A DNA stretch of 34,482 bases, taken from assembly GCA_031264185.1 (NCBI GenBank), contig JAISEL010000054.1:1-34482 (forward strand), read 5' to 3'. A program made the position numbers and the translations under genes. The notes beneath the pieces are model-generated. The model searched no databases, was not told where the DNA came from, and saw only the letters and a program-made list of their open reading frames with translations. The DNA comes from Deltaproteobacteria bacterium (lineage in GTDB: Bacteria > Desulfobacterota > Desulfarculia > Adiutricales > Adiutricaceae). Of the stretch, positions 1,481 through 34,079 are shown one piece after another (position 1 is the stretch's first letter; the number at the start of each line of letters is the position of its first letter).

Positions 1481-1591
1481 CTGAATAAGAGAGCGGACGG
1501 ATTCGGATACTTCGTTTCTGATTAAACTAAACTTTAAGGAGGCGGCGTTTCCCGCCGGCCTTTCGGCCGGGGTTTCTACGCCGAAGAGCGG
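1481..1591 (+). promoter_or_regulatory. Repeated structured leader, copy 1 (SD-hairpin-AUG)
   Basis: The segment aligns along its length with 9967-10076 and 28190-28299. AAGGAGG at 1536-1542 is a near-perfect Shine-Dalgarno sequence but lies 49 nt before the ATG at 1592. The gap is filled by a hairpin: outer stem CGGCGT (1543-1548) with ACGCCG (1578-1583), and inner stem CCGGCC (1555-1560) with GGCCGG (1565-1570) closed by TTTC. Eight bases (1584-1591) separate the stem from the ATG, so folding gives ideal SD spacing. A conserved GTTT...CTAAACT stretch precedes the SD. Seen in sequence: the repeat and the pairing. Inferred: control of translation by folding. Confidence 0.7.
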
Positions 1592-9732: not shown

Positions 9733-9966
9733 TTTAAGCGGGATTTTGGGGTTTAATAAGATGATGGCAGAAGGAAGGCTGACCGGATTCAGCTGGTCAA
9801 GGTTCAATTATCCCGAAGCCCAGGCCCCGGAGGCCCTGGTTCGGGCTGACGGACCGAAAGGGAAAACAGGCCGGAATTGACTCCGGCGGACGGCTGCCCT
9901 GTCTTCCGGTTCATTTGGCAGGGCAAAGGCGTTCGGGCCGGCAGCCAGTGTCCATAATGCGGCTGC
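9733..9966. other. Intergenic region with strong hairpins
   Basis: No supported gene. A long stem-loop at 9812-9845 pairs CCCGAA with TTCGGG, CCAGG with CCTGG and CC with GG around loop CCGGA, with small bulges; it lacks a T tract. A second inverted repeat TGCCCTG/CAGGGCA is at 9895-9901 and 9919-9925. They may end the phoU transcript or belong to an untranslated leader of the following gene. Confidence 0.4.
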
Positions 9967-10076
9967 CTGATTCAGAGAGAGGACGGATAAGTACATTTCG
10001 TTTCTGATTTCAACTAAACTGCAGGGGGCGGCGTTTATTCCGGCTTTTCGGCCGGAGCTTCTAAGCCGCAGATCGG
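9967..10076 (+). promoter_or_regulatory. Repeated structured leader, copy 2 (SD-hairpin-AUG)
   Basis: Aligns with 1481-1591 from CTGATTCAGAG to the start codon. The SD is AGGGGG (10023-10028). The hairpin has outer stem CGGC (10029-10032) with GCCG (10065-10068) and inner stem TCCGGC (10039-10044) with GCCGGA (10051-10056). Eight bases lie between the outer stem and the ATG at 10077, as in copy 1. Loop and internal-loop sequences differ while pairing is kept. Confidence 0.7.
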
Positions 10077-11147
10077 ATGAGCAAAGTCAAACGGAAAGTC
10101 ATGCTGGTCGACGATAATTTGACCAATTTAAATGTGGGCAAGAACGCTTTACTGGAACACTATGATATTCTTCCGGCCACCTCGGCCGAAAAAATGTTTA
10201 AACTTTTGGGACGGGTGACTCCGGATCTGATATTATTGGACGTGGAAATGCCGGAAATGGGCGGTTATGAGGCTATTAAAATCCTTAAATCCAACCCAGA
10301 GACAGCTTTTATACCGGTAATATTTTTAACCGCCATGATTGATCAGGAAAGCGAACTGGCCGGCTTATCTCTTGGCGCGGTGGACTATATAACCAAGCCT
10401 TTTGTCCAGACCTTACTGTTGAAACGGATTGAACTCCACCTGCAGCTGGAGGACTATAACCATAATTTAAAGAATATGGTCGAGGAAAAAACCAAGACCA
10501 TTTTGGAAATGCAGAACGCGGTTTTTGAGCTTTTGGCCGAGGTGGTTGAATATAAAGACGACGTGACCGGCGGCCACATCAGCCGCACCCAGAAGTATCT
10601 GCGGATTATGCTGGACGAACTCATCCGGCGGAGCATTTATTCTGAAGAGGTTTCGGCCTGGGATCCCCGGCTCATTGTTCTGTCTTCCCAGCTCCATGAC
10701 GTAGGCAAAGTGGCCATCAAAGACAGTCTTTTATTAAAAGAAGGCAAACTGACAGACGAAGAATTCGAGGAGATGAAGAAACACACCATTTACGGGGCTA
10801 AAATTATAGAAAAAATAGAATCCAATACGACCGGCCGGCAATTTATAGAACACGCCCGGCTCATGGCTCTGACCCATCATGAAAAATGGGACGGCACCGG
10901 CTATCCTTACGGATTGAAAGGCGAATCCATTTCCTTGGAGGGCCGTCTTATGGCCTTTGCCGATGTCTACGACGCCCTGGTCTCCACCAGGCCGTATAAG
11001 GCCCCTTTTTCTCACCCCGAGGCGGTCGATATCATCCGCCAGGGTCAGGGGACCCATTTTGATCCGGCTTTACTTGAGGTTTTTTTGGCCGTGACCGACA
11101 AATTCCTGGAAATCCGGCGGGATGAAAGACCGTCCGGTAAAGACTAA
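10077..11147 (+). CDS. Response regulator with HD-GYP domain (probable c-di-GMP phosphodiesterase)
   Basis: A 356-residue two-domain regulator. REC (about 6-122) has Asp-Asp at 12-13, phosphoacceptor Asp55 in LLDVEMP and Lys107 in the TKP motif. After a short coiled linker, the HD-GYP domain (about 145-345) shows HD at 207-208 (LHDVGK), HTIYG, HH at 267-268 and an intact GYP at 275-277 within HHEKWDGTGYPYGLKG. Intact HD-GYP proteins hydrolyse cyclic di-GMP, so phosphorylation probably controls c-di-GMP turnover. The ATG is fixed by the repeated leader. Two hybrid kinases follow on the same strand, the first after only 5 bp, making them its likely input. Confidence 0.93.
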   Translation: MSKVKRKVMLVDDNLTNLNVGKNALLEHYDILPATSAEKMFKLLGRVTPDLILLDVEMPEMGGYEAIKILKSNPETAFIPVIFLTAMIDQESELAGLSLGAVDYITKPFVQTLLLKRIELHLQLEDYNHNLKNMVEEKTKTILEMQNAVFELLAEVVEYKDDVTGGHISRTQKYLRIMLDELIRRSIYSEEVSAWDPRLIVLSSQLHDVGKVAIKDSLLLKEGKLTDEEFEEMKKHTIYGAKIIEKIESNTTGRQFIEHARLMALTHHEKWDGTGYPYGLKGESISLEGRLMAFADVYDALVSTRPYKAPFSHPEAVDIIRQGQGTHFDPALLEVFLAVTDKFLEIRRDERPSGKD

Positions 11148-25816: not shown

Positions 25817-26236
25817 ATGTTAATTACCCTGTTTGTGGGGAATTATCCTTATGAAACTCAGCCAGCTGAACTATTGGCCGTTTTTTCTCGTTTCGGCCGG
25901 GTGGATTCGGTCAAGCTTATAAGCGATCAATTGACCGGCCGGTCCAAGGGTTTTGGCTTTATTAAAATTGAGGAGTCGGCCGGCCGAGCTGCCATTAAGG
26001 CTCTCCACCGGGCTGATTTTTCCGGACGCCCTTTAAATGTTCGGGAAGCGGGTCCCGTCCGGCGGGAGATTACTTTGGCTGACAACCGAGAAATCGGTAA
26101 TGGGTTTTCGCCAGCTCCCCTAGAGTCGGAAGCGTTTGTTCAAAATTACTGGCAGAATCAAGGGCCTCAGCTTTCCTCAGTCGGCTTGAAACGTCAGACT
26201 TCTTATAACCAGTGCAGATCAATCATCCCCAGCTAA
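25817..26236 (+). CDS. RRM-domain RNA-binding protein, first copy
   Basis: A 139-residue protein with one RNA-recognition motif at residues 3-80. RNP2 is LFVGNY and RNP1 is RSKGFGFIKI, with the aromatic residues that stack on RNA bases present. The C-terminal 60 residues are polar and without a known domain. Small single-RRM proteins of this kind occur in cyanobacteria and several other phyla, where some are cold-induced; that role is only suggestive here. The ATG at 25817 has a weak SD. The RRM domain is about 60 percent identical by eye to the protein at 28737, so the two are paralogues. Confidence 0.88.
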   Translation: MLITLFVGNYPYETQPAELLAVFSRFGRVDSVKLISDQLTGRSKGFGFIKIEESAGRAAIKALHRADFSGRPLNVREAGPVRREITLADNREIGNGFSPAPLESEAFVQNYWQNQGPQLSSVGLKRQTSYNQCRSIIPS

Positions 26237-27322
26237 AGCACAGGGTTTGAAGAGCCCTGGTTTAACCGGGGAAAGCGGTAACCAGCCCGCTGTGTTTTCT
26301 GCAGGTGCAGACCTACGGCAGTGTGCATCAAACGTTCCGCCCTCTTTAAGTCTGGTGATAAAGGTAAGCCAAAGGCAGGCTTGAGACGGCTCGGAACCTC
26401 AGCGCAGACGTAAAACTTTTCTGAGGGGAGCGGTCTGACAGGGCCCGCCACTAGGCCAGCAGGGATATTTATCCAAGGATTGAACATGGTTTTTTGTTTT
26501 GGATAAGAGTAAAAAACGCTCATGCCATGCTCTGAGAAACTAGCCGGACTTCTTTTGGATCGAAAGAGGACTGACGTATTTAAATATGTCCCTTTACTAT
26601 CCGCCTGGCAGGCCGTTTTGGTGAAGACTCGGGTTCTCCGGCCTCCGGCCTCTGACCTTGAAATTAGATCCTGGCAGTAAAACTCCGGAGTGGCCTTGGT
26701 TCGTCCGCCGGATGAAAGTCCCGGATTTTTGATCAAACTTGTCTCTTTTTTTGAGAGCCAAAATCTGTGCTGGTTCCTAGTAACCTCTAATTTGATGGAT
26801 AAAGGCGCTTCAGCTTGATCCGTGCATCTGATGCAGTAAATTGCCATTTTATCTTGGAAGTCCGGTTGTTTCTGTCTTTCTGGCCTTCGACAGGCAGACA
26901 AATTAAAGACTATTTAGATAAATTTGGACTTCAAAAATATTCTTATGCAACAAAAAATTCTTGGCTGGCTAACTATATTAAAAAAATATATAACGAGTAT
27001 GAGTTGCTAAATTAATACAAATTATTATTGATGGTCAAAATAGCAGCAGGGTAATACGTCAGCTAAAAAAATGATAATAAATTCAGCCAGTTATCTGTTG
27101 TCCTGCAGATAACAACGAAACTCGGGCTATTCCTCGGCATTTAATTATGAGAATGCTGTAATACCGTTTTTATTACAGGTTTTGAACTAATCCTCTCAGA
27201 GTTTCGTGCAGTGGCAATAGTTGATGAGAACGTTAAACTCAGTCTTGGCAAAATTCAGCCAATTTCCAGGCTTGGTTCTATAGTTGTTTCCCGACCTTTG
27301 ATATAAGCGGAATTCCTCTTAG
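26237..27322. other. Gene-poor debris region between RRM genes
   Basis: More than 1 kb of mixed composition. A 222-codon minus-strand frame spans 26233-26901, but its composition is unlike the neighbouring genes and I recognise nothing in it, so I do not call it. Visible structures are an inverted repeat TTATCCAA/TTGGATAA (26469-26476, 26499-26506), a palindromic stretch just after the RRM stop (about 26241-26272), and the branched fold at 27090-27207. Most of it is probably decayed or horizontally acquired DNA. Confidence 0.4.
27090..27207. other. Branched inverted-repeat structure (possible structured RNA or element end)
   Basis: Four nested perfect pairings fit one fold. Hairpin A is GTTATCTG/CAGATAAC (27090-27097, 27106-27113). 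A 9-bp closing helix pairs ACGAAACTC (27115-27123) with GAGTTTCGT (27199-27207). Inside it are hairpins GCATT/AATGC (27137-27141, 27152-27156) and CTGTAATA/TATTACAG (27156-27163, 27171-27178), which share one base. The result is a three-way junction beside a hairpin. No known RNA family or transposon end is recognised. Confidence 0.4.
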
Positions 27323-28138
27323 AAAGGAAAGGCCGCTTGCCTTTCAAAAATAAGCTACTCGGCACAAGGCCACAAGACCCATGAGTGTGTTGACAAATTC
27401 ACGGCCAATATACGAAGTCTGGCTCTGAGGGGCGGGGCTGTCAGGTTCGACCTGCAAGAAATAGGAAAACCGGAGATTTCTGAGGCCGAGAACAGTTTGG
27501 GGATCCTCTAAGGTTGAGAGTTCCTGGAGTACTGACTGGAGAAATGGGTCAGGTCAGACGTTTACTTTGGTCAGGAGAACGTATCTATCCAAATTGCGCC
27601 CAAGTTTCCAAAGCTTCCGGCGGTTCTGGCCGCCCGTCCAATCTGGCCTTGGCTTGATTGTAGCCGGAAGAGGGCTGTCCAGGACTTCAAGATTTTTTGA
27701 ACTAAAGCCGGAACTTGCGGATAAAATTCCTAAACAGGCCAAGTCTCCTCTAAAAGATGCGGTGTCAGGCAACACCTTGGCTGGATTCAATTTTCTGAAG
27801 GATACAGGGCAGCCTGATTTTATGGGCTGTGGCTGGCCAACCAAGTTCAGCAGGTTAAGATTCAATATCCTTAAATCACAGGCTCTGTAGACTGTCTGCG
27901 TTGGTCAGGTTTCTGCGCATCAGTTTGGAAAAACCGCCTTTGATTTTCCCCAACCGGTGGCGCGGGAGGTAACAGCGGGCCCAACTTGCGAGTCACGTCT
28001 TTCCAAGAGGCTATCAGCCGGAGGCCAAAAGCGGATTTGGGTTCTGAACCGGACATGGTCTGGACTTATGTATTGATTAGTCCAGCTGATCGGAATTCAC
28101 ACCGGATGGCCGTCCGTACTTTAGGATCATTTAACTGA
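27323..28138 (+). pseudogene. Multi-lesion pseudogene of an unrecognised protein
   Basis: Protein-like sequence is spread over two frames. Frame 2 from 27323 gives HECVDKFTANIRSLALRG up to TAA at 27509, then TGA at 27515 and 27533, then WVRSDVYFGQENVSIQIAPK. At the T6 run (27693-27698) coding moves to frame 3 (ELKPELADKIPKQAKSPLKD) and passes an in-frame TAG at 27888 (then VGQVSAHQFGKTAFDFPQPV). Near 27977-27982 it returns to frame 2 (RVTSFQEAISRRPKADLGSE) and ends at TGA 28136-28138. That is at least four stops and two frameshifts. I do not recognise the family; the N-terminal end is undefined. This is decayed, not expressed, coding DNA. Confidence 0.6.
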
Positions 28139-28189
28139 CATGCTGGCGCACTTGGGATGGCGGTCTCTTTTTCTCATAAATATGTTTGC

Positions 28190-28299
28190 CTGATTCGGCG
28201 AGTGTATGAATATTGATACTTTGTTTCGAGTTAAGCTAAACTTCAGGAGGCGGTGTTGCTCCGGCCTTTCGGCTGCGGGGTTTTACGCCGGAGATTGAG
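28190..28299 (+). promoter_or_regulatory. Repeated structured leader, copy 3 (orphan)
   Basis: Third copy of the SD-hairpin-AUG element. AGGAGG is at 28245-28250, and the outer stem CGGTGT (28251-28256) pairs with ACGCCG (28285-28290) through a G-U pair, so the stem is kept despite a base change. The inner stem is less regular. Nine bases separate it from the ATG at 28300. That ATG opens only ATG-AAC-CTA-CAG-TAA (28300-28314), so no real gene follows and the element has either lost its gene or acts alone. Confidence 0.6.
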
Positions 28300-28314
28300 A
28301 TGAACCTACAGTAA

Positions 28315-33720: not shown

Positions 33721-34079
33721 ATGTTTAAGAATTTTGAACCGCCGCCTAAGGTCAATCCAAGCGGAACCGATCTCCTGGGACAAGCAGCAGTTGACCAGAT
33801 CCACTGATCCATGCCTGCGGAACCGATCTCCTGGGACAAGCAGCCGCTGACCAGATCCACTGATCCATGCCTGGGGAGACCGATCTCCTGGGACAAGTAG
33901 CCGATGAACAGGTCTCGGGAAAAAACTATAGTGAGTCAGCATCTCAGGATCCGCCCGCAATTGAGGCCAATGAGTCTTCCCATAAATCCCATCCCAAAAG
34001 GATCAAGGATCTTGGGGGCAGGCAGCCGACGACACTGCGCCGCCAAAATCAGACTATATACTACTGTTTAAATATATAA
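33721..34079 (+). pseudogene. Short ORF broken by a 56-bp tandem repeat
   Basis: GGGAG ends about 8 bases before the ATG at 33721, which opens MFKNFEPPPKVNPSGTDLLG and hits TGA after 27 codons, inside the first repeat unit. The last unit, in a different frame, continues ETDLLGQVADEQVSGKN to a stop at 34079. Units of 56 bp are not a multiple of three, so each extra copy shifts frame. Collapsing the array to one unit (removing 113 bp) would restore a frame of about 81 codons. The product is polar, without a known domain, and may itself be the start of a once longer gene. Confidence 0.45.
33761..33917 (+). repeat. Tandem repeat, 56-bp unit, about 2.8 copies
   Basis: Units at 33761-33816 and 33817-33872 are nearly identical (both begin GCGGAACCGATCTCCTGGGA and end CTGATCCATGCCT). 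A third, diverged partial unit at 33873-33917 has one extra base. There are no unique spacers, so this is not CRISPR. Confidence 0.85.

Follow-up and report, generated by a model that had tools for sequence, protein, structure and literature searches.

The 3' end of IscB/HEARO elements as a putative folded ribosome-binding site at start codons

The window analyzed here is the whole 34,482-nucleotide stretch of contig JAISEL010000054.1 (assembly GCA_031264185.1, Deltaproteobacteria bacterium). It carries three copies of a repeat, all on the plus strand and all ending directly in front of an ATG. Copy 1 consists of a short iscB C-terminal coding remnant of a truncated element (1488–1536, recognized by BLAST similarity to the element at secA and to 40 genomic copies) and a terminal module (1537–1591) composed of a Shine-Dalgarno sequence (SD), an outer stem, an inner hairpin, and an 8-nt tail. 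The SD, AGGAGG (1537–1542), adjoins the outer stem CGGCGT/ACGCCG (1543–1548 and 1578–1583), and 8 nt further the ATG at 1592 opens, with an ATGA start, the ORF of an LRR protein (1592–2689). Copy 2 comprises a decayed iscB C-terminal part (9838–10006, from blastn and tblastn, the tblastn part being weak) and a module with an 8-nt tail (10023–10076). Its SD is AGGGGG (10023–10028), its outer arms CGGCGT (10029–10034) and AAGCCG (10063–10068) form 5 of 6 pairs (GCGGC/GCCGC is an alternative stem), and after 8 nt the ATGA start of a HD-GYP response regulator (10077–11147) follows. In copy 3, a HEARO (omega RNA) region (26220–26494; matched by blastn to that of other copies at E 5e-33 to 3e-14) precedes a frameshifted iscB pseudogene with stops (26519–28228; hit in several segments by tblastn with two IscB proteins, lowest E 2.6e-25) and a module with a 9-nt tail (28245–28299), an arrangement that we read as a full-length, decayed element. 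The SD AGGAGG (28245–28250) is followed by the stem CGGTGT/ACGCCG (28251–28256 and 28285–28290, one U-G pair), then 9 nt, and the ATG at 28300. ATGA is found here too, but the ATG opens an ORF of 4 codons only. A repeat scan of the window also detected three tandem 56–57 bp repeats, 70–89% identical, at 33752–33920.

The SD-to-AUG distance in copies 1 and 3 is 48–49 nt in the linear sequence and 8–9 nt once the stem is looped out. The preliminary description of this DNA had given the same positions and anatomy for the three copies, with the SD directly at the 5' base of the hairpin, the 3' base 8, 8, and 9 nt before the ATG, and a linear distance of about 49 nt, all of which agrees with our measurements in the window. 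Its repeat length of about 110 bp was too short, since full-length copies extend to ~1.4–2 kb. The placement before unrelated genes holds for the LRR protein and the HD-GYP regulator but not for the 4-codon ORF of copy 3.

In many copies the stretch 5' of the SD translates as ..VSHKYCRLIQRADGYGYFVSNF-stop, the C-terminus of IscB; where it matches the remnant of copy 1, the consensus of the other copies reads ..SHKYCRLIQRADGYGYFVSNFN-stop. An intact ORF of 431 aa located 5' of the copy C97:69292 matches guided_IscB (NF040563, E 5e-79) and contains RRXRR (PF14239) and HNH (PF01844) domains. The HEARO RNA (RF02033) was matched over its full length on two sister copies (E 8.8e-5 and 1.7e-4, below the gathering score of 83 bits), and the HEARO region could be aligned in 16 copies. 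The order of the element, 5' to 3', is HEARO RNA, iscB (usually decayed or deleted), the IscB C-terminus, and the leader. Self-comparison reveals nested lengths: up to ~1.4 kb with iscB, ~350 bp with HEARO joined to the end, and short stubs. Because its upstream part reads as the IscB C-terminus and HEARO is found, the leader is identified as the 3' terminus of a HEARO/IscB element (ISC, IS200/IS605 superfamily). A free-standing regulatory RNA family was dropped on the same grounds. A riboswitch or known Rfam leader was also rejected, as no curated family covers the leader: Rfam gave no gathering-level match over the window, the best match to the leader (E 4.8) being to an sRNA on the opposite strand. 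A REP/RAYT-type repeat was set aside, since a TnpA search of the genome (draft, 166 contigs) returned a single partial Y1_Tnp match in a 62-aa frame, and the copies always stand in one orientation and place relative to ATGA. The preliminary reading as a folded leader stands in its SD-hairpin-AUG layout and in the many copies at start codons, but it had foreseen neither a transposon terminus, nor an ATGA target, nor a hairpin that doubles as a terminal palindrome.

BLAST of copy 1 against its own genome detected 40 strong copies. The covariance model built from them and run on the 4.4 Mb draft genome gave 72 matches at E<=0.014, so that the genome holds about 70 copies, and the repeat recurs far beyond chance. 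The preliminary description had expected such a search to find more copies before start codons and had counted copies elsewhere against its reading: for 62 of the 72 matches, an ORF of 60 aa or more starts at the ATG of the model or a few in-frame codons away, and about 10, mostly low-scoring and decayed, face no gene (orphans). The downstream genes, as read from their translations, are unrelated and include secA, leuC, an atpF-like gene, rplO, cysS, asd, cheW, modA, dnaJ, nrdR, a Fur-type regulator, pheT, argD, guaA, a parA-like gene, and response regulators. Some of the element-led ORFs have features of their own. In two of them (C90:46807 and C68:185), a short nucleotide repeat gives the encoded N-terminus long Ser-Leu repeats (ALSLSLSLSLSL) within a membrane segment, which may mark phase-variable genes. 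Paralogous proteins of ~135 aa starting MKIRQDFVSNSSSTSF occur in at least four copies (among them L033, L106, and L116, on C11 and C100), each member standing behind its own diverged element end. The ORF after the end at C147:19711 can be read as a fusion of a trpF domain with trpB.

ATGA directly follows the element in 67 of 75 copies, and the far foot of the hairpin stands 7–9 nt from the AUG. We read ATGA as the target (TAM) motif, which doubles here as a start codon, so that the position of the element at the ATG follows from its insertion target. Insertion of HEARO at ATGA/GTGA sites was reportedly described by Weinberg in 2009. IsrB prefers an NTGA/ATGA TAM (PMC9581776). At the filled secA site, the native SD region TAAAGGATCGATTAATTC is located just outside the 5' end of the element and ATGAAAAAT follows its 3' end, whereas in five same-genus secA genes without the element the native leader joins the ATG directly. 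At rplO, the element lies at the end of rpmD, which leaves the native SD ~390 nt away. Among 16 junctions, with boundaries set by eye, an SD match of at least 4 nt is present just 5' of the element in 9 (4.4 expected, p 0.01). The ATGA sites of the window include 7 start codons and 67 non-coding non-start sites, as against 62:10 among the element copies, so that either targeting or selective retention is needed. Neither BLAST nor the covariance model detected element copies in the same-genus genomes; the model misses diverged copies, since an old copy before an EF-G-like gene was found there by a protein search.

The gene-linked copies differ from the orphans in what has been kept. A perfect AGGAGG is present in 53 of 62 gene-linked versus 3 of 10 orphan copies (Fisher p 6e-4) and an intact outer stem in 45 of 62 versus 3 of 10 (p 0.013), all ten orphans having been found with the model built from the module itself. 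The divergence of the stretch from SD to tail, relative to the HEARO part, is 0.13–0.79 in 12 gene-linked copies of ~350 bp and 0.70–0.99 in four orphans. The median predicted probability of the outer stem is 0.71 in the gene-linked copies and 0.03 in the orphans. The SD is predicted to be partly paired by local folding in many copies (median unpaired probability 0.34). An asymmetry of C-to-T versus G-to-A changes, considered as a sign of G-U tolerance, was uninformative, the excess being equal in unpaired columns. We conclude from these comparisons that the SD-hairpin stretch is held by selection in the gene-linked copies, while the orphans decay.

In a survey of 67 IscB loci from named genomes, the same end recurred in Schekmanbacteria, Desulfobacterota, Thiomargarita, Bacillota, Aliidiomarina, and Nitrospirae, and the ATGA behind it usually opened a gene. 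In 25 diverse IscB ends the SD is located at the foot of the stem, with a linear SD-ATG distance of 47–55 nt and a looped-out distance of 5–13 nt. The outer stems include CGGCGT/ACGCCG, CGGTGT/ACACCG, GCGCGA/TCGCGC, GGCAA/TTGCC, TCGGCAA/TTGCCGA, and ACAGCGT/ACGCTGT. At least 9 distinct outer stems occur across phyla, and their own 3' arms pair better than swapped ones (permutation p<5e-5); the stems were paired sequence by sequence, because MAFFT shifts the 3' arm by one column. The compensatory stem changes expected in the preliminary description are thus seen as outer stems rebuilt in other lineages, but covariation among the copies within the genome is modest. Two related genera carry the same device at rsmI, glyS, ilvN, a nadE-like gene, rplC, era, and gltX, with GCGCGA/TCGCGC stems. 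Before the EF-G-like gene, an orthologous SD-hairpin-AUG is present in six genomes of the same genus and in three other genera, with varying loop lengths, changed stems, and no mobile parts recognized alongside. This old copy has thus been kept across four genera. Among these orthologs the outer-stem swap test gave p 0.5, the stems being too alike, and the MFE z-scores were unremarkable.

In some of the surveyed IscB lineages no SD-hairpin module could be recognized, and in those of Acidaminobacter and Silicimonas the SD seemingly lies in the 3' arm instead. At three loci of Acidaminobacter sp. JC074, the terminal stem has AGGAGGTT in its 3' arm, paired to AACCTCC and ~6 nt from the ATGA, a different way for an element end to supply an SD and perhaps to mask it. 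The terminal hairpin with AGGAGG is also found at the ends of tnpB elements. In two genomes (G024 and G010), such elements, with a divergent N-terminus and the terminal hairpin of the IscB elements, number ~26–40 copies that are almost identical and often lie at contig ends; TTGA or TTAA flanks them, and most face no gene. The hairpin thus serves as a terminal palindrome of transposons as well, and its conservation and covariation may in part be due to recognition of the DNA by TnpA.

The identity of the element, its ATGA target, the architecture of the module, the arrangement at the empty secA site, and the selective conservation can be read from the sequences; we infer that the hairpin folds in the living cell and that the SD of the element is the one used by ribosomes. 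A copy of IscB/HEARO inserts immediately 5' of ATGA, in most surviving copies a start codon and the first base of codon 2, and pushes the native SD upstream by hundreds of bases. The end of the element brings a replacement SD, AGGAGG, which directly adjoins the 5' side of the terminal hairpin, and folding of this hairpin in the mRNA would remove ~40 nt and set the SD 7–9 nt from the AUG, so that the downstream gene, even an essential one, would stay translated. The iscB gene and HEARO later decay or are deleted, while the SD-hairpin-AUG module is kept by selection and would become the ribosome-binding site of the gene. We consider it highly probable that the 3' end of the transposon acts in this way as a start-codon ribosome-binding site with a folded SD, and a split site of the T4 gene 38/25 type appears to be the best-supported mechanism.

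The hairpin and AGGAGG might instead function only in DNA, as a terminal palindrome with guide bases recognized by TnpA, with the start-codon position following from the ATGA target and translation resuming by chance or by another route. The hairpin shared with tnpB ends that are flanked by TTGA and face no gene would suit such a role, as would ATGA in nearly all copies, but we find it unlikely: the SD and stem are kept in gene-linked copies while HEARO and iscB decay and are lost in orphans, the start-codon bias is 62:10 as against ~7:67 among the available sites, and the old copy has been kept across genera with no mobile parts recognized beside it. Termination-reinitiation, with ribosomes that end iscB just 5' of the SD restarting at the downstream AUG and the hairpin being incidental, would fit the full-length copies, where the stop of iscB precedes the SD by ~10 nt. 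It appears very improbable, as most copies have no translatable iscB (pseudogenes and the ~350-bp deleted forms) yet keep the module.

Scarcely any credence can be given to a ligand- or protein-responsive switch, in which a loop CCTCC would pair with the SD GGAGG in an OFF state opposed to the split-site ON state. Such pairing is suggested by a TTCCTCC conserved across phyla between the outer and inner stems, but its predicted probability is ~0.003 in the median gene-linked copy and exceeds 0.5 in 8 of 62. Moreover, many copies have no CCTCC, the downstream genes share no pathway, and TTCCTCC is found at gene-less tnpB ends too.

The likeness to T4 gene 38 noted in the preliminary description agrees with the published cases: at T4 genes 38 and 25, a hairpin shortens the SD-AUG distance from 22 to 5 nt and from 27 to 11 nt, respectively (PMC3014915). 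A hairpin likewise lies between SD and AUG here (a predicted shortening from ~49 to 8 nt), but the T4 cases are single phage genes, whereas the present hairpin is larger, has two parts, and belongs to a mobile family repeated before many genes. With HEARO/IscB (ISC) elements it shares the IscB ORF, the HEARO RNA 5' of iscB, the terminal hairpin, and insertion before ATGA; it differs in the SD at the foot of the hairpin, in the location of most copies at start codons, and in the retention of the end as the ribosome-binding site of a host gene after the rest has decayed. IStrons (a group I intron joined to IS200/IS605) are likewise of the IS605 type and have a built-in device that spares the host from the harm of insertion (PMC4227781); their repair takes place within genes, by splicing, whereas the present element would repair translation initiation at start codons. 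Mobile promoters and REP or MITE repeats are likewise short, transposase-mobilized repeats before unrelated genes, but here a ribosome-binding site rather than a promoter is fixed to the ATG, always sense-oriented at ATGA and with a clear full-length IscB parent.

What appears to be new is that the end of a transposon would serve as a portable ribosome-binding site targeted to start codons. The literature searched yielded no report of an SD-hairpin transposon end in the role of a split ribosome-binding site aimed at start codons, though part of this may be described in Weinberg 2009 and Kapitonov 2016. To our knowledge, split ribosome-binding sites have so far been known mainly from two T4 genes; the present family would provide a large natural set of them and allow a direct test of the loop-out model. 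It also suggests a biological reason for the ATGA-type TAMs of IscB/IsrB. We think it reasonably likely that a whole branch of IscB/HEARO, from the family that gave rise to Cas9, has become specialized for start codons: its target would be the start codon itself, its guide would be a copy of the native SD region that insertion displaces, and its end would be a portable folded ribosome-binding site, making insertion at an essential gene survivable and then locked in by selection. If so, an RNA-guided transposon would spare its host at a sensitive gene site by replacing the ribosome-binding site that it displaces, and tens of host genes would depend on a transposon end for their translation.
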